DNA from: a virus
IMG/VR virus record: IMGVR_UViG_3300009152_000238
Span: 1 to 21,917 of that record
Length of the DNA: 21,917 nt
Strand: one strand, 5' to 3'
Shown: one piece after another, positions 4,515 to 21,261 of the stretch
How the letters are laid out: every line of letters starts with the position of its first letter
How positions within the stretch are numbered: position 1 is the stretch's first letter
The notes under the pieces: model-generated
The model's input: the letters and a program-made list of their open reading frames with translations, nothing else
The model's database searches: none
What the model was told of the DNA's origin: nothing
Made by a program: the position numbers and the translations under genes

Positions 4515-5420
4515 TTAGGTCGGGAACGAACCGTAGATCGAACGCCAGTTATAGTAACCGAAGCTGTAACGTTCGTAGCCCTTCACGAGAAGATTGTCAG
4601 TAACGAAGTCGACTTGCATGTCGGATTCAAACTTAACACGCTCCATGTAGGAGAGGCCGTCGATGTTCGTCAGCAGGAACCAAGCCGAGGTCGAGGTCAA
4701 GAAGTCCGAAACCATATAGGACTCAGGCAAGCCGCCCGAGGTCATCATGATCGCGTTAACATCATTGTCCGCTGTACCCGGACGCAGTTCTGTCTTCGTG
4801 AGACGGATTGCGACAGGTTCCAAAGCAGTCGGGACGATCAACTTGCGGGCGCGGGCGAAGACCTTGAGGCCAGCCTGATCCTTGAAGTTGGTACGAACCG
4901 CAATCATCGCGTTCAGCAGGGTGGACTCGTTGAGTTCAACCGTTGCGTAGTTCGAGATTGTCGAGCCATCGATAGGATGCGAGGCCGAAACCAGCGCGAC
5001 ACCATCACCGCCAACCGCGCCATTGTAGGTCGTGGCTGTGTTGAGGATGTTGGCACCATAGATTTCCTTCGTCTGCTGGAAGGATTCGATGAGGCCGAGG
5101 TTCGACGGCATGAACTGTGTCTTGTACAGGTTGTCATCGATGGCCTTGCGAGTGATCGCGTAGCCAAGAGCGATTTCAGTGTGTTCCTGATTGTAGACGT
5201 AGCGTTCGCCAGCCGAGTTATCGAAAGCAGTCTGACCGCCTTCTGTCTTGAGCTGGGCGAGGCCGAGGAAGCGCATTTCAGCAGTGCGTTCCAGAGCCAT
5301 CTTCGACTCATGCTTGGTGAAGATTTTGTCGTACTGAGATGGGATCATCTCGTACTTGCCTTCAACCCCACGGAGACCGGGGAGGAGAAGGTCTTTAATC
5401 GCTGAGAGATTAACAGCCAT
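4515..5420 (-). CDS. Major capsid protein, Mu gpT-like
   Basis: 301 aa, a usual length for compact HK97-fold capsid proteins. The segment AFDNSAGERYVYNQEHTEIA followed by LGYAITRKAIDDNLY is the typical pattern of the Mu gpT-like major head subunit family, including the long helix region around residues 100-130 (LIESFQQTKEIYGANILNTA). SASHPIDG and RKLIVPTALEPVA are also characteristic of this capsid type. There is no obvious N-terminal protease-cleaved scaffold domain; a separate scaffold candidate lies upstream at 8004. A GGAGTAAGG ribosome binding site precedes the ATG, and a strong terminator follows the stop. Confidence 0.9.
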   Translation of the reverse strand: MAVNLSAIKDLLLPGLRGVEGKYEMIPSQYDKIFTKHESKMALERTAEMRFLGLAQLKTEGGQTAFDNSAGERYVYNQEHTEIALGYAITRKAIDDNLYKTQFMPSNLGLIESFQQTKEIYGANILNTATTYNGAVGGDGVALVSASHPIDGSTISNYATVELNESTLLNAMIAVRTNFKDQAGLKVFARARKLIVPTALEPVAIRLTKTELRPGTADNDVNAIMMTSGGLPESYMVSDFLTSTSAWFLLTNIDGLSYMERVKFESDMQVDFVTDNLLVKGYERYSFGYYNWRSIYGSFPT

Positions 5421-5433
5421 TGGTCCTTACTCC

Positions 5434-6018
5434 TTAGATGCCCGTAAGATTGCGGGTTGTCACGTTGTTGAACGAGACAATGACATAGTTGTAAGCGCCA
5501 GCCTCAGTGCCAGCAGAACCCGGAGGCTGCGTGACAAGGCCGACGATACGGAACGGAAGGGTAGCAGTGGTCGGGCCAATGCTGGAGATGAATGCACCAG
5601 AGATGCCGTTGGCAGTGTTGCCAGTGCCGATGGTATAACCAACGGTGCCGTTAACATCTGACTGAGCAACGCCTGTCGCATCCGACTGAACGAGGAACTT
5701 AGCGTTCGGGTCGTTGATGATGTAGCCAATGACCGTCTGGGTCGAGGCAACATCTGAACCGGGCCAATAGTTGGACCAAACGGTACGCTTCTGCGAAACC
5801 GAAAGATACTGACAGCCGACGAAGATACCAGCAATGCCAGCAGCCGCAGTCGTGCCATCGCCCTGAATCACCTGACCGTTAGCATCGGGTTCAACGGGGT
5901 CGCCAAAGAAGATATTCGTAGCGTTGTAAGCGATCTGGACAGCAACCTGTTCATAGGTTGGGGCAGAACCAGTGCCGCTGTACTGACGGAAACCGAAAGG
6001 CGCATTTGTATTCGCCAT
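5434..6018 (-). CDS. Capsid-associated structural protein
   Basis: 194 aa, starting MANTNAPFGFRQYSGTGSAP. 'APFGFR' openings of this type are common in phage proteins encoded immediately before or after the major capsid gene. The sequence is Gly/Thr/Ala-rich and beta-prone, with no enzymatic motif; GQVIQGDGTTAAAGIAGIFV suggests a compact beta domain. An AAGGAGG ribosome binding site lies 8 nt before the ATG, and the stop is 13 nt before the capsid gene start. The most likely role is a head decoration or capsid-stabilising protein, inferred from position and composition. Confidence 0.82.
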   Translation of the reverse strand: MANTNAPFGFRQYSGTGSAPTYEQVAVQIAYNATNIFFGDPVEPDANGQVIQGDGTTAAAGIAGIFVGCQYLSVSQKRTVWSNYWPGSDVASTQTVIGYIINDPNAKFLVQSDATGVAQSDVNGTVGYTIGTGNTANGISGAFISSIGPTTATLPFRIVGLVTQPPGSAGTEAGAYNYVIVSFNNVTTRNLTGI

Positions 6019-6088
6019 GACGGGGCCTCCTTTTTACAGGAAGTTCATCATCGCGCGCCGGGGCGATTAAGAACCGGGAAAGTTTAAA

Positions 6089-6108
6089 ACCTCCACGCCG
6101 GGGGAGGT
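6089..6108 (-). other. Hairpin in the leader of the capsid operon
   Basis: ACCTCC and GGAGGT (6-bp arms, 8-nt loop) are followed by TTT on the minus strand. It could be a weak second terminator after the 72-aa unit, or a leader hairpin of the capsid transcripts. Otherwise the 6019-6156 gap holds nothing I can name. Confidence 0.35.
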
Positions 6109-6156
6109 AGGGCATAAAGCCTCTATGCACAAAGTAACAGAACGCGCCTGAAACGT

Positions 6157-6181
6157 AAAGAGCCGCCCCGAAGGGCGGCTC
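6157..6181 (-). terminator. UUCG-capped intrinsic terminator of the 72-aa gene
   Basis: On the minus strand GAGCCGCCC-TTCG-GGGCGGCTC is a perfect 9-bp stem closed by a C(UUCG)G-type tetraloop, followed by TTTACG. The U-run is short. It begins 6 nt after the stop of the 72-aa gene. Confidence 0.82.
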
Positions 6182-6187
6182 AGTGCT

Positions 6188-6406
6188 TTATTTATTGCAG
6201 TCTTTCAGTTCAAACTGCCCAAGGACATCGAGGCTGCGTGAGTATATTTCGACGTATTCTTTCTCCGTCACGATGATCCGACCATCCTCCATATAAAAAA
6301 TCATTGCAGATTCGCTTTTGATGCCGGGGAACAACTTCCGGTCTTCAGCATCGAATTTGTTGCACTTTGATTTAGCCAACAAATACATCATTTCTGCTGC
6401 GGTCAT
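6188..6406 (-). CDS. Moron-like small protein of unknown function (72 aa)
   Basis: Start ATG 6406 (MTAAEMMYLLAKSKCNKFDA) is chosen because GGAG lies 8 nt upstream; a longer frame to 6475 would run through a hairpin and back to the promoter. The product is a small soluble-looking protein with two cysteines and mixed charge (SESAMIFYMEDGRIIVTEKE), no membrane segment and no family I recognise. The gene has its own promoter and terminator inside the structural operon, between the 187-aa protein gene and the capsid genes. This is the layout of a phage moron, often a lysogenic-conversion or host-takeover gene; that role is inference only. Confidence 0.78.
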   Translation of the reverse strand: MTAAEMMYLLAKSKCNKFDAEDRKLFPGIKSESAMIFYMEDGRIIVTEKEYVEIYSRSLDVLGQFELKDCNK

Positions 6407-6430
6407 TTTATATCTCCATATCAAACAGCA

Positions 6431-6464
6431 AATTGGGCAAGGCCGTTTTTGACCTTGCCCAATT
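6431..6464 (-). promoter_or_regulatory. 12-bp inverted repeat at the transcription start of the 72-aa gene
   Basis: AATTGGGCAAGG and CCTTGCCCAATT are perfect 12-bp arms with a 10-nt loop. The predicted start point (about 6457-6459) falls in the first arm, so the mRNA would begin with GGGCAAGG paired to CCTTGCCC. That is a 5' terminal stem-loop that could protect the transcript. As DNA the repeat abuts the -10 box and could also be an operator. No T-run follows, so it is a poor terminator for the upstream operon. Confidence 0.65.
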
Positions 6465-6493
6465 ATATTACCCAATCACTGGCATAATGTCAA
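6465..6493 (-). promoter_or_regulatory. Sigma-70 promoter for the 72-aa gene
   Basis: On the minus strand a perfect -35 TTGACA (6493-6488) is followed by exactly 17 nt and TAATAT (6470-6465, 4/6 match). It lies just after the stop of the upstream gene and drives only the 72-aa gene before a terminator. Host RNA polymerase could use it without a phage factor. Confidence 0.72.
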
Positions 6494-6507
6494 GCGCTAA
6501 CTTGACA
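6488..6507. promoter_or_regulatory. Palindromic operator candidate over the -35 box
   Basis: TGTCAAG-CGCTAA-CTTGACA is a perfect 7-bp dyad with a 6-nt spacer. The left half contains the complement of the promoter's -35 TTGACA. A dimeric repressor bound here would block the promoter. The second TTGACA, on the plus strand, has no -10 at the right distance. Confidence 0.5.
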
Positions 6508-6508
6508 A

Positions 6509-7072
6509 TTATTTATCCGATGGAACTGGAATAGCTTCGTAGCCCTTCTTGATCTGCGGGCGAACTTGCGCGTGATCACGGGTCAACGTGCCATCAGGCG
6601 TGCCTGCGATCTGAGCTTCCTTATCGCGGACCTGCTTGCGGGCCAGATAGTCATGGCGGCGGCGAGCCTCATCAACGATCTCGGTCGGGCGTTCCATAAG
6701 GATCATGCCTTTGCGCTCAATAGTGGCACCTTGCCAGCCGTTCGGCATAAAGTTTGGGTGACGGCGCACAGGAACTGGTTCCCAACCAGCCTGTTCCAAC
6801 TCGACCATGTGGCTCGGGTCTTCTGCGCCAAGCAAAAGACGGCGGCACCACTGATAAGTCCAACCTTCTGGGGCCTGCGGAAGCGGAAACTCGTCCGAAC
6901 CCTCAGTCATGCTGTCAATGTGGCCGCGCAATTGAGCTGAACGACGATTGGCGCGTTCAAGCGGGCTTTCTTCGCGTACCTCATCACGCATATCGCCACG
7001 CGGAACCGCAACCTGTTCTGTTTCTTCGACAATTCGTGGGTCTTGTCCACGGCGTTTGATCTGTTTTTCCAT
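6509..7072 (-). CDS. Conserved phage head-cluster protein (187 aa)
   Basis: The first ~55 residues are charged and probably disordered (EKQIKRRGQDPRIVEETEQ). A conserved core follows: APEGWTYQWCRRLLLGAEDP, then LEQAGWEPVPVRRHPNFMP and GMILMERPTEIVDEARRR. I recognise this core from uncharacterised proteins placed between scaffold and capsid genes in similar phages. No enzyme motif is visible. The position between the scaffold candidate and the capsid genes suggests a role in head assembly. Its stop lies one base from the palindrome of the 72-aa unit, so that unit was inserted precisely between two structural genes. Confidence 0.82.
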   Translation of the reverse strand: MEKQIKRRGQDPRIVEETEQVAVPRGDMRDEVREESPLERANRRSAQLRGHIDSMTEGSDEFPLPQAPEGWTYQWCRRLLLGAEDPSHMVELEQAGWEPVPVRRHPNFMPNGWQGATIERKGMILMERPTEIVDEARRRHDYLARKQVRDKEAQIAGTPDGTLTRDHAQVRPQIKKGYEAIPVPSDK

Positions 7073-11161: not shown

Positions 11162-14146
11162 TCAAGCCTTTTTAGAGGTTAGCACAAGTGCGCGTTCTAC
11201 AACAGAGCGACCAACACCTTTGTAGTTGGGTTTGTTACGGATACGGCCACCGCGTTTTTCGCCACCGCCGCCATCACCACCACCACCACCGCCGTCCCCG
11301 CCGCCGCCATCACCGCCACCATCGCCACCATCGCCGCCATCGCCGCCGTCATCACCGCCGCCATCGTCGCTGCCATCATCCCCGTCATCACTATTATCGT
11401 CAGCTTGTTCATTTTCTTGAGAAGAAAATGCGCTTTTGGCTCCACTCAAGTCACCATAGGGACCATTTACACCCACCATTGATGCGCTTTTTCCTTCAGC
11501 AAATGACATTGGTCCAATAGATGGCTGACCAAATGCGTCAAACGCTCCTGTTAAATTACCAGCCCAAGATGTGTTTTCAGAAGATTTTGCATTATCCGAA
11601 GGAGCTGATGGGCTTGGACCATATGATGTCGATGAAGATATTGGCGAAGGACCAAAATCATAATTTGTCCCAAACATCATACCGCTACCAACATCTGGCG
11701 GCGCTGTTCCCTGTTGTTCTTCAAGGTCTTTTTTTGCTTGCTCTTCTGGAGTTAAGGGAACGCCACCAATAGCAAAACCAACGCGACCGCCTTGGGCATA
11801 TTTGCGCTTTACGGCCACATGGTTGTGGTCAAAGACAACGTAATTGCGTGTTGGCTTATCAGTTCGACCACGAGAACCTTCATCCAGATATTTAATTCCC
11901 GGAACGCCGAGCCTCGCTAAATCTTCAGATATTTTTTTAAGGTCTCCAGATTTTACCAATTGATGAAAAAATTGGCCTCTTGCTCCAACGGATTGTTGAA
12001 ACCCTTCTTCTGCATTTTTTAATGCTAATTCCGGTGTTGGAGCAGCGGGATGACCATTGGCTGAATATTTCCAATTAGGATTTTCGGAACCTGTTTCTGA
12101 AACAGAAAAAGTTGGTTTTTTAACAGGTTTAAAATTAAAATACTTTTGAACTTTTTCAGGTTGCCGCGACATAGGCTCATCCCAATCAGCAAAATGATCT
12201 GGATGTGCTTTAATATGTACCTCGTACATATGACCAGCAGGGGTAGCGTATTCAGTTTTAAGTAAAGCTTCGTAAACAGAATCTGGAATGTTTTTATTGT
12301 TCCATATGTCTGCGCTGGCTTTTTCTAAATCGCCTTGATGCTCATTGATAAGATGAGCCGCCATAACTGATGTTTGTGGGTCGTATCCTAATTTTGCAAA
12401 TGCCTTTGCAACTTCTTTCCTTGCCCAATGCGGGTGTTCTTCATCGCCAATTTTAACATTTCCGGGATTATGGCCCGCTAATCTATCACGATAACCTATG
12501 GCAACTGGCTCACTCTCAGCAAAATACAGCCCATGCCCGTAAGCCTGTGCGCCTTCGCCAGTGCCGATCTTGCTGGTGTCAAACTGCTCAAAGTCGTGCG
12601 GAGAACCGTGATAGGCTGTGATGCCGTCTTCGTCTTCGTCATCGACAGCGCCGCCATCGCGGAAGGCTGACTGTCCTTGCAAGATAGACTGACGCATCTG
12701 TGGCGTGATTGTCAGGCCAAGCGGCTTGATTGGCTCATCAGGATCGCCGCGCTCGGTGTCTGGCGGCAAAGTAAATTTGCTAGGCGCAACCTTGGCTTGT
12801 GGGTCATGTTCCTGCGCCAGTTTTTGCAAGCGGGTCGGAACCATTTTGTCGTAATAGCCTTTCATGCCCTCGCCGCCAAACTCCATATTAGGAGTTTCTA
12901 GAACATGATTGCCGCTTAGTTTATTGCGTGGCGTTGCCAAAAGTTGCTTCGCTGCGTCTTCACCAATGAGCTTGCCCAATTCATGAGGCTCTACTGGATC
13001 ATTGTGCGATTCCCAATTGCCGCCGTCTTTTGGCACATAGCTAAATTCTTTTTCTTCAGGATCGTAAGCAATTCGATCAACTGAATTTCTCAGGTTGTAG
13101 CGGTTGGCTTGTTGCTGTCCCGGCGTCCAAACAATGTGGTCATAGCCACCCTTAGCGGCTTCGTGCATAACGCGCTTCAGTGCAAGATCGGTCCATGCAG
13201 CCGTCTTGTTGACATACGGCGCATCTGGCACCCCAACGCCAGTGGTCTTAGAAAACTCATTCAACTCATTTTGAGCAGAGACATATTCAGGAGAGCCAAC
13301 TTTTGCCGCGTCTTTTTTTCTTAAAAGATCGTTAAATTTTTTATTGTTTACAGACCAAAACCCTTCTTTACGGCCCTCCTGTCCCCAATCGGATTGCAAC
13401 TCCTCAACATGCAAAATCTTTTCGCCTCGCGGTCCCAATCGATCTGACATGCGAATGTGGGCAAGTACGTCTGGTGTTTTCCAGTGACTCGACTTAAATT
13501 CAGTTTGTGGCTTATTCTGATTGTTGTTTTTCCAATCAGTAAAAGCTTTCATCTGCTCATTTTCAGCATCAGTAAGGCGTTCTTGCTCGGCCTTATTTGC
13601 AAGATCATAGTATTTTTTTTCTGAGATTGGTGGTGGGTTTGACTCATATTTAAGCAAAACCTCACGGTAATTTTTTTGATAGGGCAGCGTGAAGTCACCA
13701 AACTTAACAGGCTTGCCGTTTTCGCGTATTTCGTTCAGTTCTTCTAATCTATTGCGCCGCTGTTGAAGGATTTGCTCCCGCTCTTCGCGCTCGGGGCTTC
13801 CAACTTCATAATAGCCAAGGCTATGCTCAAGAGCATCGGTGCTTTTGCTTAATTCGTTAATTTCGCGTGTTGGGTCTTGATGATGCACAACTTCGCTTAT
13901 CTGAGGCACCGAGCCATGCAGATGTTCAATCAAGTCCTGCTTGCTGATTTTGCCGCGCTTAACCCAATCAGGGTGAGGTTTATTATTCTCGTCAATTACG
14001 CCAGCGTTTAACAATTCATCCTTGCTAATGCCGCCCTTGTTGAGAAGGGAGGCAATCAACTGTTGCGCTGGAAACGAACCTTCTGGAAGCTCATTGGCTT
14101 TCTCAGCGCCCTTTGAATAGAGACCGAGCGAGTTTAGGCGGCGCAT
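11162..14146 (-). CDS. Polyvalent protein with ADP-ribosyltransferase-like domain (994 aa)
   Basis: Domains in order: a helical N-terminus (1-150) with an 'ISKDELLNAGV' type segment; a large conserved middle (~150-455) with LPYQKNYREVLLKYE, EKILHVEELQSDWGQEGRK, PYVNKTAAWTDLALKRVMHE and GGEGMKGYYDKMVP, typical of phage and plasmid polyvalent proteins; then an ART-PolyVal-type domain (~508-784) with ITAYHGSPHDFEQFD, YGHGLYFAE and a closing GIKYLDEGSRG...RNYVVFD. Conserved His513 and Tyr541 fit the NAD-binding H-Y pattern. After it come YAQGGRVGFAIGG, a low-complexity tail, a Gly/Asp run and a basic end. Such proteins are thought to be injected with the DNA and to modify host targets. It starts in a TAATG overlap with the upstream gene. 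The target is unknown. Confidence 0.87.
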   Translation of the reverse strand: MRRLNSLGLYSKGAEKANELPEGSFPAQQLIASLLNKGGISKDELLNAGVIDENNKPHPDWVKRGKISKQDLIEHLHGSVPQISEVVHHQDPTREINELSKSTDALEHSLGYYEVGSPEREEREQILQQRRNRLEELNEIRENGKPVKFGDFTLPYQKNYREVLLKYESNPPPISEKKYYDLANKAEQERLTDAENEQMKAFTDWKNNNQNKPQTEFKSSHWKTPDVLAHIRMSDRLGPRGEKILHVEELQSDWGQEGRKEGFWSVNNKKFNDLLRKKDAAKVGSPEYVSAQNELNEFSKTTGVGVPDAPYVNKTAAWTDLALKRVMHEAAKGGYDHIVWTPGQQQANRYNLRNSVDRIAYDPEEKEFSYVPKDGGNWESHNDPVEPHELGKLIGEDAAKQLLATPRNKLSGNHVLETPNMEFGGEGMKGYYDKMVPTRLQKLAQEHDPQAKVAPSKFTLPPDTERGDPDEPIKPLGLTITPQMRQSILQGQSAFRDGGAVDDEDEDGITAYHGSPHDFEQFDTSKIGTGEGAQAYGHGLYFAESEPVAIGYRDRLAGHNPGNVKIGDEEHPHWARKEVAKAFAKLGYDPQTSVMAAHLINEHQGDLEKASADIWNNKNIPDSVYEALLKTEYATPAGHMYEVHIKAHPDHFADWDEPMSRQPEKVQKYFNFKPVKKPTFSVSETGSENPNWKYSANGHPAAPTPELALKNAEEGFQQSVGARGQFFHQLVKSGDLKKISEDLARLGVPGIKYLDEGSRGRTDKPTRNYVVFDHNHVAVKRKYAQGGRVGFAIGGVPLTPEEQAKKDLEEQQGTAPPDVGSGMMFGTNYDFGPSPISSSTSYGPSPSAPSDNAKSSENTSWAGNLTGAFDAFGQPSIGPMSFAEGKSASMVGVNGPYGDLSGAKSAFSSQENEQADDNSDDGDDGSDDGGGDDGGDGGDGGDGGGDGGGGDGGGGGGDGGGGEKRGGRIRNKPNYKGVGRSVVERALVLTSKKA
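11261..11402 (-). repeat. Trinucleotide-rich tract coding Gly/Asp repeats
   Basis: Runs of ccaccg/ccatcg/ccgccg on the plus strand encode GGGDGG- and DDG-type repeats near the C-terminus of the 994-aa protein. The acidic, flexible linker separates the enzyme part from a short basic end (KRGGRIRNKPNYKGVGR). Confidence 0.85.
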
Positions 14147-20553: not shown

Positions 20554-20627
20554 AGGTCAAATGCCATGATCCATATAGCTACTAGTATTGCCATGAAGAT
20601 TGGGGTGATGGCTGGATTATCTGGCAT
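20550..20627 (-). CDS. 25-aa membrane micropeptide
   Basis: The ATG at 20627 lies inside the last codons of the sigma-like gene. The product is MPDNPAITPIFMAILVAIWI followed by MAFDL, a single hydrophobic segment with a short polar N-terminus. The stop is in a clean ATGA overlap with the 54-aa gene. No ribosome binding site is obvious, so it depends on coupling. The exact fit between both neighbours argues that it is translated, but a 25-codon frame could occur by chance. Confidence 0.6.
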   Translation of the reverse strand: MPDNPAITPIFMAILVAIWIMAFDL

Positions 20628-21231
20628 GGAGATCATCGAAAAATTCAATGTACTCCCGCAGCTCTCTTGATCGAGCCGGGCGCTTCATCTTGCGGATAGC
20701 TTTAGCTTCTATGTCTCTAATTCGCTGTTTACATACATTAAATTGTGTTCCAACCTCATCTAAAGTTTGAGGAACACCAGACGTAAGTCCAAAGCGTAAA
20801 TCCAAAATCCTTTGCTCACGAGGTGTAAGAGACTCTAACATGACTCGCCTAATAGTCGGCGCAAAGTCATCCAACATCTTCCTATCATCCACGGGTAGGG
20901 CGTCCATACGGAGGCTTGTAGAGACCTGCATGAGGTCAGCCTTGTTCACCTCTGTAATGTATTTATTGCGCTGTAGGGGCGCTTCTCGCCGCTCTGGCGG
21001 GTAGATGTAATCGGGAAGAACTTGCAGGGCGTTTGCTAATCTGATGATTGACCCATTAACTTGCCCCTTTTTTCTGTAAAATGGAGCTTTAAATGCAATA
21101 ATCTCATTAACACTCGGATATTGAAGGTTATTTTCACGACAAAAAGCCGGGACGCTTTCGTATCCCAATTCCTCAATGCGTTTAAGAACTGCGTTGTTTC
21201 TGACTTTGATCTCTAGTCTGTAGTCTTTCAT
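20617..21231 (-). CDS. XRE-like HTH / sigma-70 region 4 regulator
   Basis: 204 aa from ATG 21231 (MKDYRLEIKVRNNAVLKRIE); AGAGAGA lies upstream, whereas the earlier ATG at 21255 has no site. Residues ~25-80 look like an XRE/Cro-type helix-turn-helix (ESVPAFCRENNLQYPSVNEI, then IIRLANALQVLPDYIYP). Residues ~134-194 closely match region 4 of primary sigma factors: LTPREQRILDLRFGLTSGV, TLDEVGTQFNVCKQRIRDIE, AKAIRKMKRPARSRELREYI. Sigma regions 2 and 3 are absent, so the protein cannot melt promoters as a normal sigma factor. It may act as a DNA-binding activator that contacts the polymerase beta flap, or redirect polymerase. Similar phage proteins are known; their mechanism is unclear to me. Confidence 0.85.
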   Translation of the reverse strand: MKDYRLEIKVRNNAVLKRIEELGYESVPAFCRENNLQYPSVNEIIAFKAPFYRKKGQVNGSIIRLANALQVLPDYIYPPERREAPLQRNKYITEVNKADLMQVSTSLRMDALPVDDRKMLDDFAPTIRRVMLESLTPREQRILDLRFGLTSGVPQTLDEVGTQFNVCKQRIRDIEAKAIRKMKRPARSRELREYIEFFDDLHAR

Positions 21232-21261
21232 TTTAAGTCTCTCTAAATGTATCATTGAGTG

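Follow-up and report, generated by a model that had tools for sequence, protein, structure and literature searches.

Between two genes of the head operon, the 21,917-bp virus record analysed here (the window, in which the unit and all neighbour genes named below lie on the minus strand) carries what is probably an exchangeable accessory-gene unit, sited at a fixed slot in a lytic phage and transcribed independently of its neighbours. Across a large group of aquatic phages, this slot just before the capsid genes is vacant in some members; in others it contains a small gene of one of six or more unrelated types, preceded by a promoter of one kind and a hairpin. The unit consists of a putative promoter, a predicted start-site hairpin, a ribosome site and an ORF, and is bounded by the stop codon of the upstream gene on one side and a terminator-like hairpin on the other.

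Layout of the junction

The unit begins directly after the stop codon of a 187-aa gene (6509–7072 in the ORF list), a conserved neighbour in 241 loci. From the end of this stop codon at 6509 it is 15 nt to a −35 box, TTGACA (6493–6488), which is followed after a 17-nt spacer by a −10 box, TAATAT (6470–6465). Next come a 14-bp hairpin with the loop AAAAAC (6464–6431; z −5.2 versus shuffles), a Shine-Dalgarno sequence, GGAG, read from the sequence (6417–6414), and the 72-aa accessory gene (6406–6188; ATG at 6406–6404, stop at 6190–6188). A UUCG-capped terminator-like hairpin (GAGCCGCCC-TTCG-GGGCGGCTC; 6181–6160) then follows, outside the inserted unit. The 141 nt between this hairpin and the next ATG (6018) hold a promoter-like sequence of the head genes, TTTACG-17-TACTTT (6131–6159, likewise read from the sequence and overlapping the terminator tail), and a conserved, structured leader RNA (6019–6108). 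Downstream lie the 194-aa head-operon gene (5434–6018; PHROGs match to phrog_37556) and the gene for the major head protein (4515–5420; phrog_371, annotated in relatives as major capsid protein). The minus-strand gene set as a whole comprises a sigma-region-4 protein, an SU10-type portal, a GroES-like protein, a 306-aa gene, the 187-aa gene, the unit, the 194-aa gene and the major head protein. The elements listed in an earlier note on this DNA (TTGACA-17-TAATAT, a 72-codon gene and a UUCG hairpin between two head-operon genes) were thus all found. Its statement that no spare sequence is present held on the side of the upstream gene, with 15 nt to the −35 box, but not on the other side, where the 141-nt stretch carries the promoter-like sequence and leader that it had passed over, as it had the 14-bp hairpin right after the −10 box.

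Among sigma-70-type sequences in the first 20 kb, TTGACA-17-TAATAT scores highest (10/12, all others being at most 9/12). The window-wide total of promoter- and terminator-like sites is no higher than in shuffles, so the promoter by itself would not have persuaded us. When 498 kb were scanned blind for promoter, hairpin, Shine-Dalgarno sequence and ORF together, eight matches were found versus 0.2 in shuffles, and the full arrangement reappears at this position in 13 distinct gap sequences. At the sequence level, the claim that the gene has a promoter of its own is borne out by the 10/12 match and by the invariance of TTGACA in all 11 cassette 5′ ends.

The promoter-like TT[TG]AC after the terminator was present at 121 of 129 sites, while the −10 of the head genes was moderately enriched (at least four matches in 51% versus 28%). 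The leader contains hairpins at 6108–6089 and 6074–6043, and then a short hairpin whose pairing of TCC (6041–6039) with GGA (6030–6028) covers the ribosome site. Alignment with 59 homologous leaders (alignment A3) showed two hairpins with CCCCGGYG-type loops and 145 double-changed cells versus 38 in shuffles. The search for known RNA families returned no Rfam match, the conserved head-gene leader included, and this leader is possibly a new RNA family. Within the 34 nt upstream of the leader, a hairpin of at least 5 bp occurs in 47 of 127 junctions versus 8.2 in shuffles; the head transcript, too, may start with a hairpin.

Elsewhere in the window, a protein with sigma-70 region 4 (20617–21255, minus strand; Pfam E 1.3e-12) could steer the polymerase of the host towards TTGACA-type promoters; it had no match in 11 other records, in a search run without a positive control. 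A 994-aa protein (11162–14146, minus strand) has a weak, below-cut-off match to the ART-PolyVal domain, and long GPVGP-type repeats can be read at 160–761 on the plus strand, opposite to the other genes.

Gain and loss of the unit among relatives

The survey started from 254 loci with the 194-aa gene, which gave 241 junctions and 133 distinct sequences: 84 empty (140–214 nt), 45 loaded and four short. Of the loaded junctions, 13 distinct ones contain the unit, complete with its TTGACA promoter and start-site hairpin; the ORFs that it carries there fall into six families: A (this window, L003, L004), B (L051, L100), C (L085, L086), D (L025, L102), E (L008, L010, L015) and F (L119). Other loaded junctions hold an HNH endonuclease gene (L059), a tRNA-like sequence with anticodon TGT, recognised by eye (L039, L053, L055), or further small ORFs without this unit's promoter. 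A small cysteine-rich protein (MELxERMxxTVxGQxTWADP...) recurs at the same slot in L057, L073, L078, L083, L126, L155, L168, L174, L183 and L189; it too is without the TTGACA-hairpin promoter, and some of its junctions also contain a tRNA-like sequence. Named relatives, compared by head protein, are MW202675.1 (87.5%), Pelagibacter phage HTVC023P (40%) and phage DSL-LC04 (35%), the junction being only 53 nt long in HTVC023P and 17 nt in DSL-LC04.

Precise presence and absence of the segment in close relatives, the comparison that the earlier note had proposed, was seen in two pairs, alongside the 84 empty sites among 133. Both flanks are ~97% identical between L129 (loaded, family F) and L130 (empty); the stretch in which they differ extends from the stop codon of the upstream gene to that of the cargo, and the terminator hairpin after it is identical in both. 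L010 (family E, loaded) and L178 (empty), with flanks 96–97% identical, behave in the same way. What comes and goes is therefore the promoter, the 5′ hairpin, the ribosome site and the gene. As contrary to its reading, the earlier note had named a gene shared by all relatives with no signals of its own; the comparison did not show this.

A terminator-like hairpin ahead of the leader was found at 77 of the 84 empty sites, versus 0 of 84 in shuffles. Since the hairpin is present in empty sites and unchanged within the loaded/empty pairs, it is resident: by this comparison, it belongs to the site and not to the inserted unit. The description of the unit as self-contained consequently had to be given up. 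The U run in the terminator tail (TTTACGTTT) is impure, which suggests that some read-through is possible. We also considered a self-mobile element and rejected it, as a repeat search found no repeat pair at the ends of the unit.

A recurring 5′ module and its unrelated cargos

Covariation supports the start-site hairpin: in 11 aligned 5′ ends, 12 of 12 pairs have changed on both sides, a result reached by none of 500 shuffles, and pairing is kept in 96.9% of cells. The 5′ regions resemble one another across cargo families (pairwise z 3.2 to 12.8), whereas the ORFs do not, and one 5′ module is used by six mutually unrelated small ORFs. A covariance model recovered the module in the cassette records tested; across 96 other loci (685 kb) it produced nothing convincing, with one match at E 0.35. 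A free DNA-pattern scan of viral contigs likewise matched it only at this slot, and no second site was found at which the module has such cargo. In a 62-kb relative, the same layout of promoter, hairpin, GGAGAT and ATG also occurs ahead of a UvrD helicase gene, and again before a small gene that precedes HTH-like and terminase-like genes (both named by eye). This points to a wider promoter design and is not proof of early timing. Transcription would be expected to start at ~6460–6458, in which case ~10 bp of the stem would be contained in the RNA.

Several families have inverted repeats that span the −35 box or lie within the spacer (p 0.002–0.2); the copy in the window, TGTCAAG-6-CTTGACA (6488–6507), is weakly supported as a possible operator (p 0.08). 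In record G005 (L282/L266, 35.4–40.5 kb), two promoters have the spacer GCAGAAAAAATTTCTGC in common, a palindrome that could be an operator, and a third promoter, near an HTH-like gene, carries AGACATTTTGTCT.

The 72-aa gene is under purifying selection, with dN/dS of 0.015 (window/L003), 0.17 (window/L004) and 0.06 (L003/L004), which rules out a spurious ORF. Its G+C content is 42.5%, compared with 56.4% and 54.5% in the neighbouring genes. In agreement with the earlier note, which could place the protein in no known family, cargos A–F had no significant hit in Pfam, PHROGs or PADLOC. No named phage homologue of the 72-aa protein was found by tblastn in phages, and none in genome contigs. Searches placed families A, C and E at this slot alone, in some cases in fragments that end before one flank. 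In the structure check, the model of the 72-aa protein (pLDDT 74) had no Foldseek match below E 0.001 in BFVD or PDB, and that of the family E protein (pLDDT 92) had no BFVD match below 0.001 (best VIA Z 3.7); neither model demonstrates a new fold. The six ORF families gave no blastp cross-match below E 0.1, so that a single diverged family lacks blastp support, although small proteins can diverge beyond detection.

Interpretation and relation to known systems

The earlier note had read the segment as a moron of the kind often expressed in lysogens. Such a classical lysogenic moron, in which a temperate phage expresses the gene as a prophage, to the benefit of the host or to exclude superinfection, would fit the separate promoter, the presence/absence pattern and the low G+C. 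Against it, no integrase was found in 13 records (integrase control positive in 14 of 14 genomes) and no resolvase in nine (controls positive in 10 of 14); the records include MW202675.1 (61 kb, a complete circular genome) and five or six of 56–62 kb. With neither found in these near-complete relatives, expression in lysogens is unsupported, and the missing genes lower the likelihood of the lysogenic reading, which we regard as unlikely. A scan of genome contigs found seven loci in MAG contigs.

Three further explanations were weighed. The promoter and hairpin might form an antitermination module of the put or boxB/boxA kind, driving polymerase through the resident terminator into the capsid genes with the ORF as a secondary feature. 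The structural conservation of the hairpin would suit this, as would a boxA-like TCTTTGAAAAC after the hairpin in L085/L086, the only close match, and TGYTNTTTGA in families A, B and F. We nevertheless consider it doubtful, given that the boxA-like stretch is absent from families D and E, that the capsid genes do without the module in most relatives and that the ORF is under purifying selection. Little weight can be given, too, to the idea that the cargo forms a minor part of the head or its decoration and is sited where it works: its position between head-operon genes is consistent with this, but six unrelated families and many empty sites speak against a needed virion part, for which a separate promoter would also be unnecessary. 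Still less probable is a repressor-controlled promoter, with the inverted repeats over or near the −35 box (seen, as above, in several families) as operator and the hairpin partly a DNA site. The repeat is broken in the close relatives L003 and L015, and the hairpin keeps its pairing while its sequence changes, which suits an RNA better than a protein site.

The reading that we favour is that of an exchangeable unit in a lytic phage. Host-type sigma-70 RNA polymerase would transcribe the 72-aa gene apart from the flanking genes, and the RNA would start with a hairpin that might protect its 5′ end, or act as some other 5′ signal, and would give steady expression. Transcription would then stop at the resident terminator, which would shield the promoter and leader of the capsid genes beyond it. 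For the product, the most likely role is that of a small accessory protein directed at the host or at defence, and the cargo may be replaced often because its target varies between hosts. A broader proposal is more tentative: a large group of lytic phages would keep this slot as a permanent plug-in site, exchanging unrelated host- or defence-directed ORFs between a resident terminator and a recurring expression head made up of promoter, covarying start-site hairpin and ribosome site, and the hairpin would be an RNA element not described before, with a function of its own in timing or stability. The site would provide a coordinate rule, in that small accessory genes that no family search detects lie between the 187-aa and 194-aa genes of this phage group, and would make every cargo a candidate host- or defence-directed protein. 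It would also illustrate a way for a phage to place a separately expressed gene before its capsid genes while leaving these undisturbed, and the exact loaded/empty pairs open gain and loss to direct testing.

A moron is a single acquired gene that frequently has a promoter and a terminator of its own (PMC2147016); lysogenic accessory loci are treated in PMC7067206. Like phage morons, the unit is a single gene with its own promoter and a differing base composition, which lies between genes adjacent in relatives and comes and goes. Unlike them, it is served by the terminator of the site, and one kind of 5′ module is used for six unrelated genes; unlike lysogenic morons, it comes with no sign of lysogeny. 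The moron reading thus stands as regards presence/absence, promoter and lower G+C, and is unsupported as regards self-containment and expression in lysogens. Lacking its own terminator and signs of lysogeny, and with one 5′ module for many cargos, the unit is moron-like, yet a variant rather than a strict member.

Stem-loops at the 5′ ends of phage mRNAs are known from the late messages of T7. The hairpin described here resembles these in its predicted place at the transcript start, between promoter and ribosome site, and differs from them in the sigma-70-type promoter, in a stem whose sequence varies while pairing is kept and in the swappable gene that follows. RNA hairpins near the transcript start are also found in the put sites of HK022 and in the boxB-boxA elements of lambda and rrn operons. 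Here, too, the hairpin is near the predicted start, with a boxA-like stretch next to it in some copies; unlike in boxB-boxA, the boxA-like part differs between families, being absent from D and E, and read-through is hypothetical.
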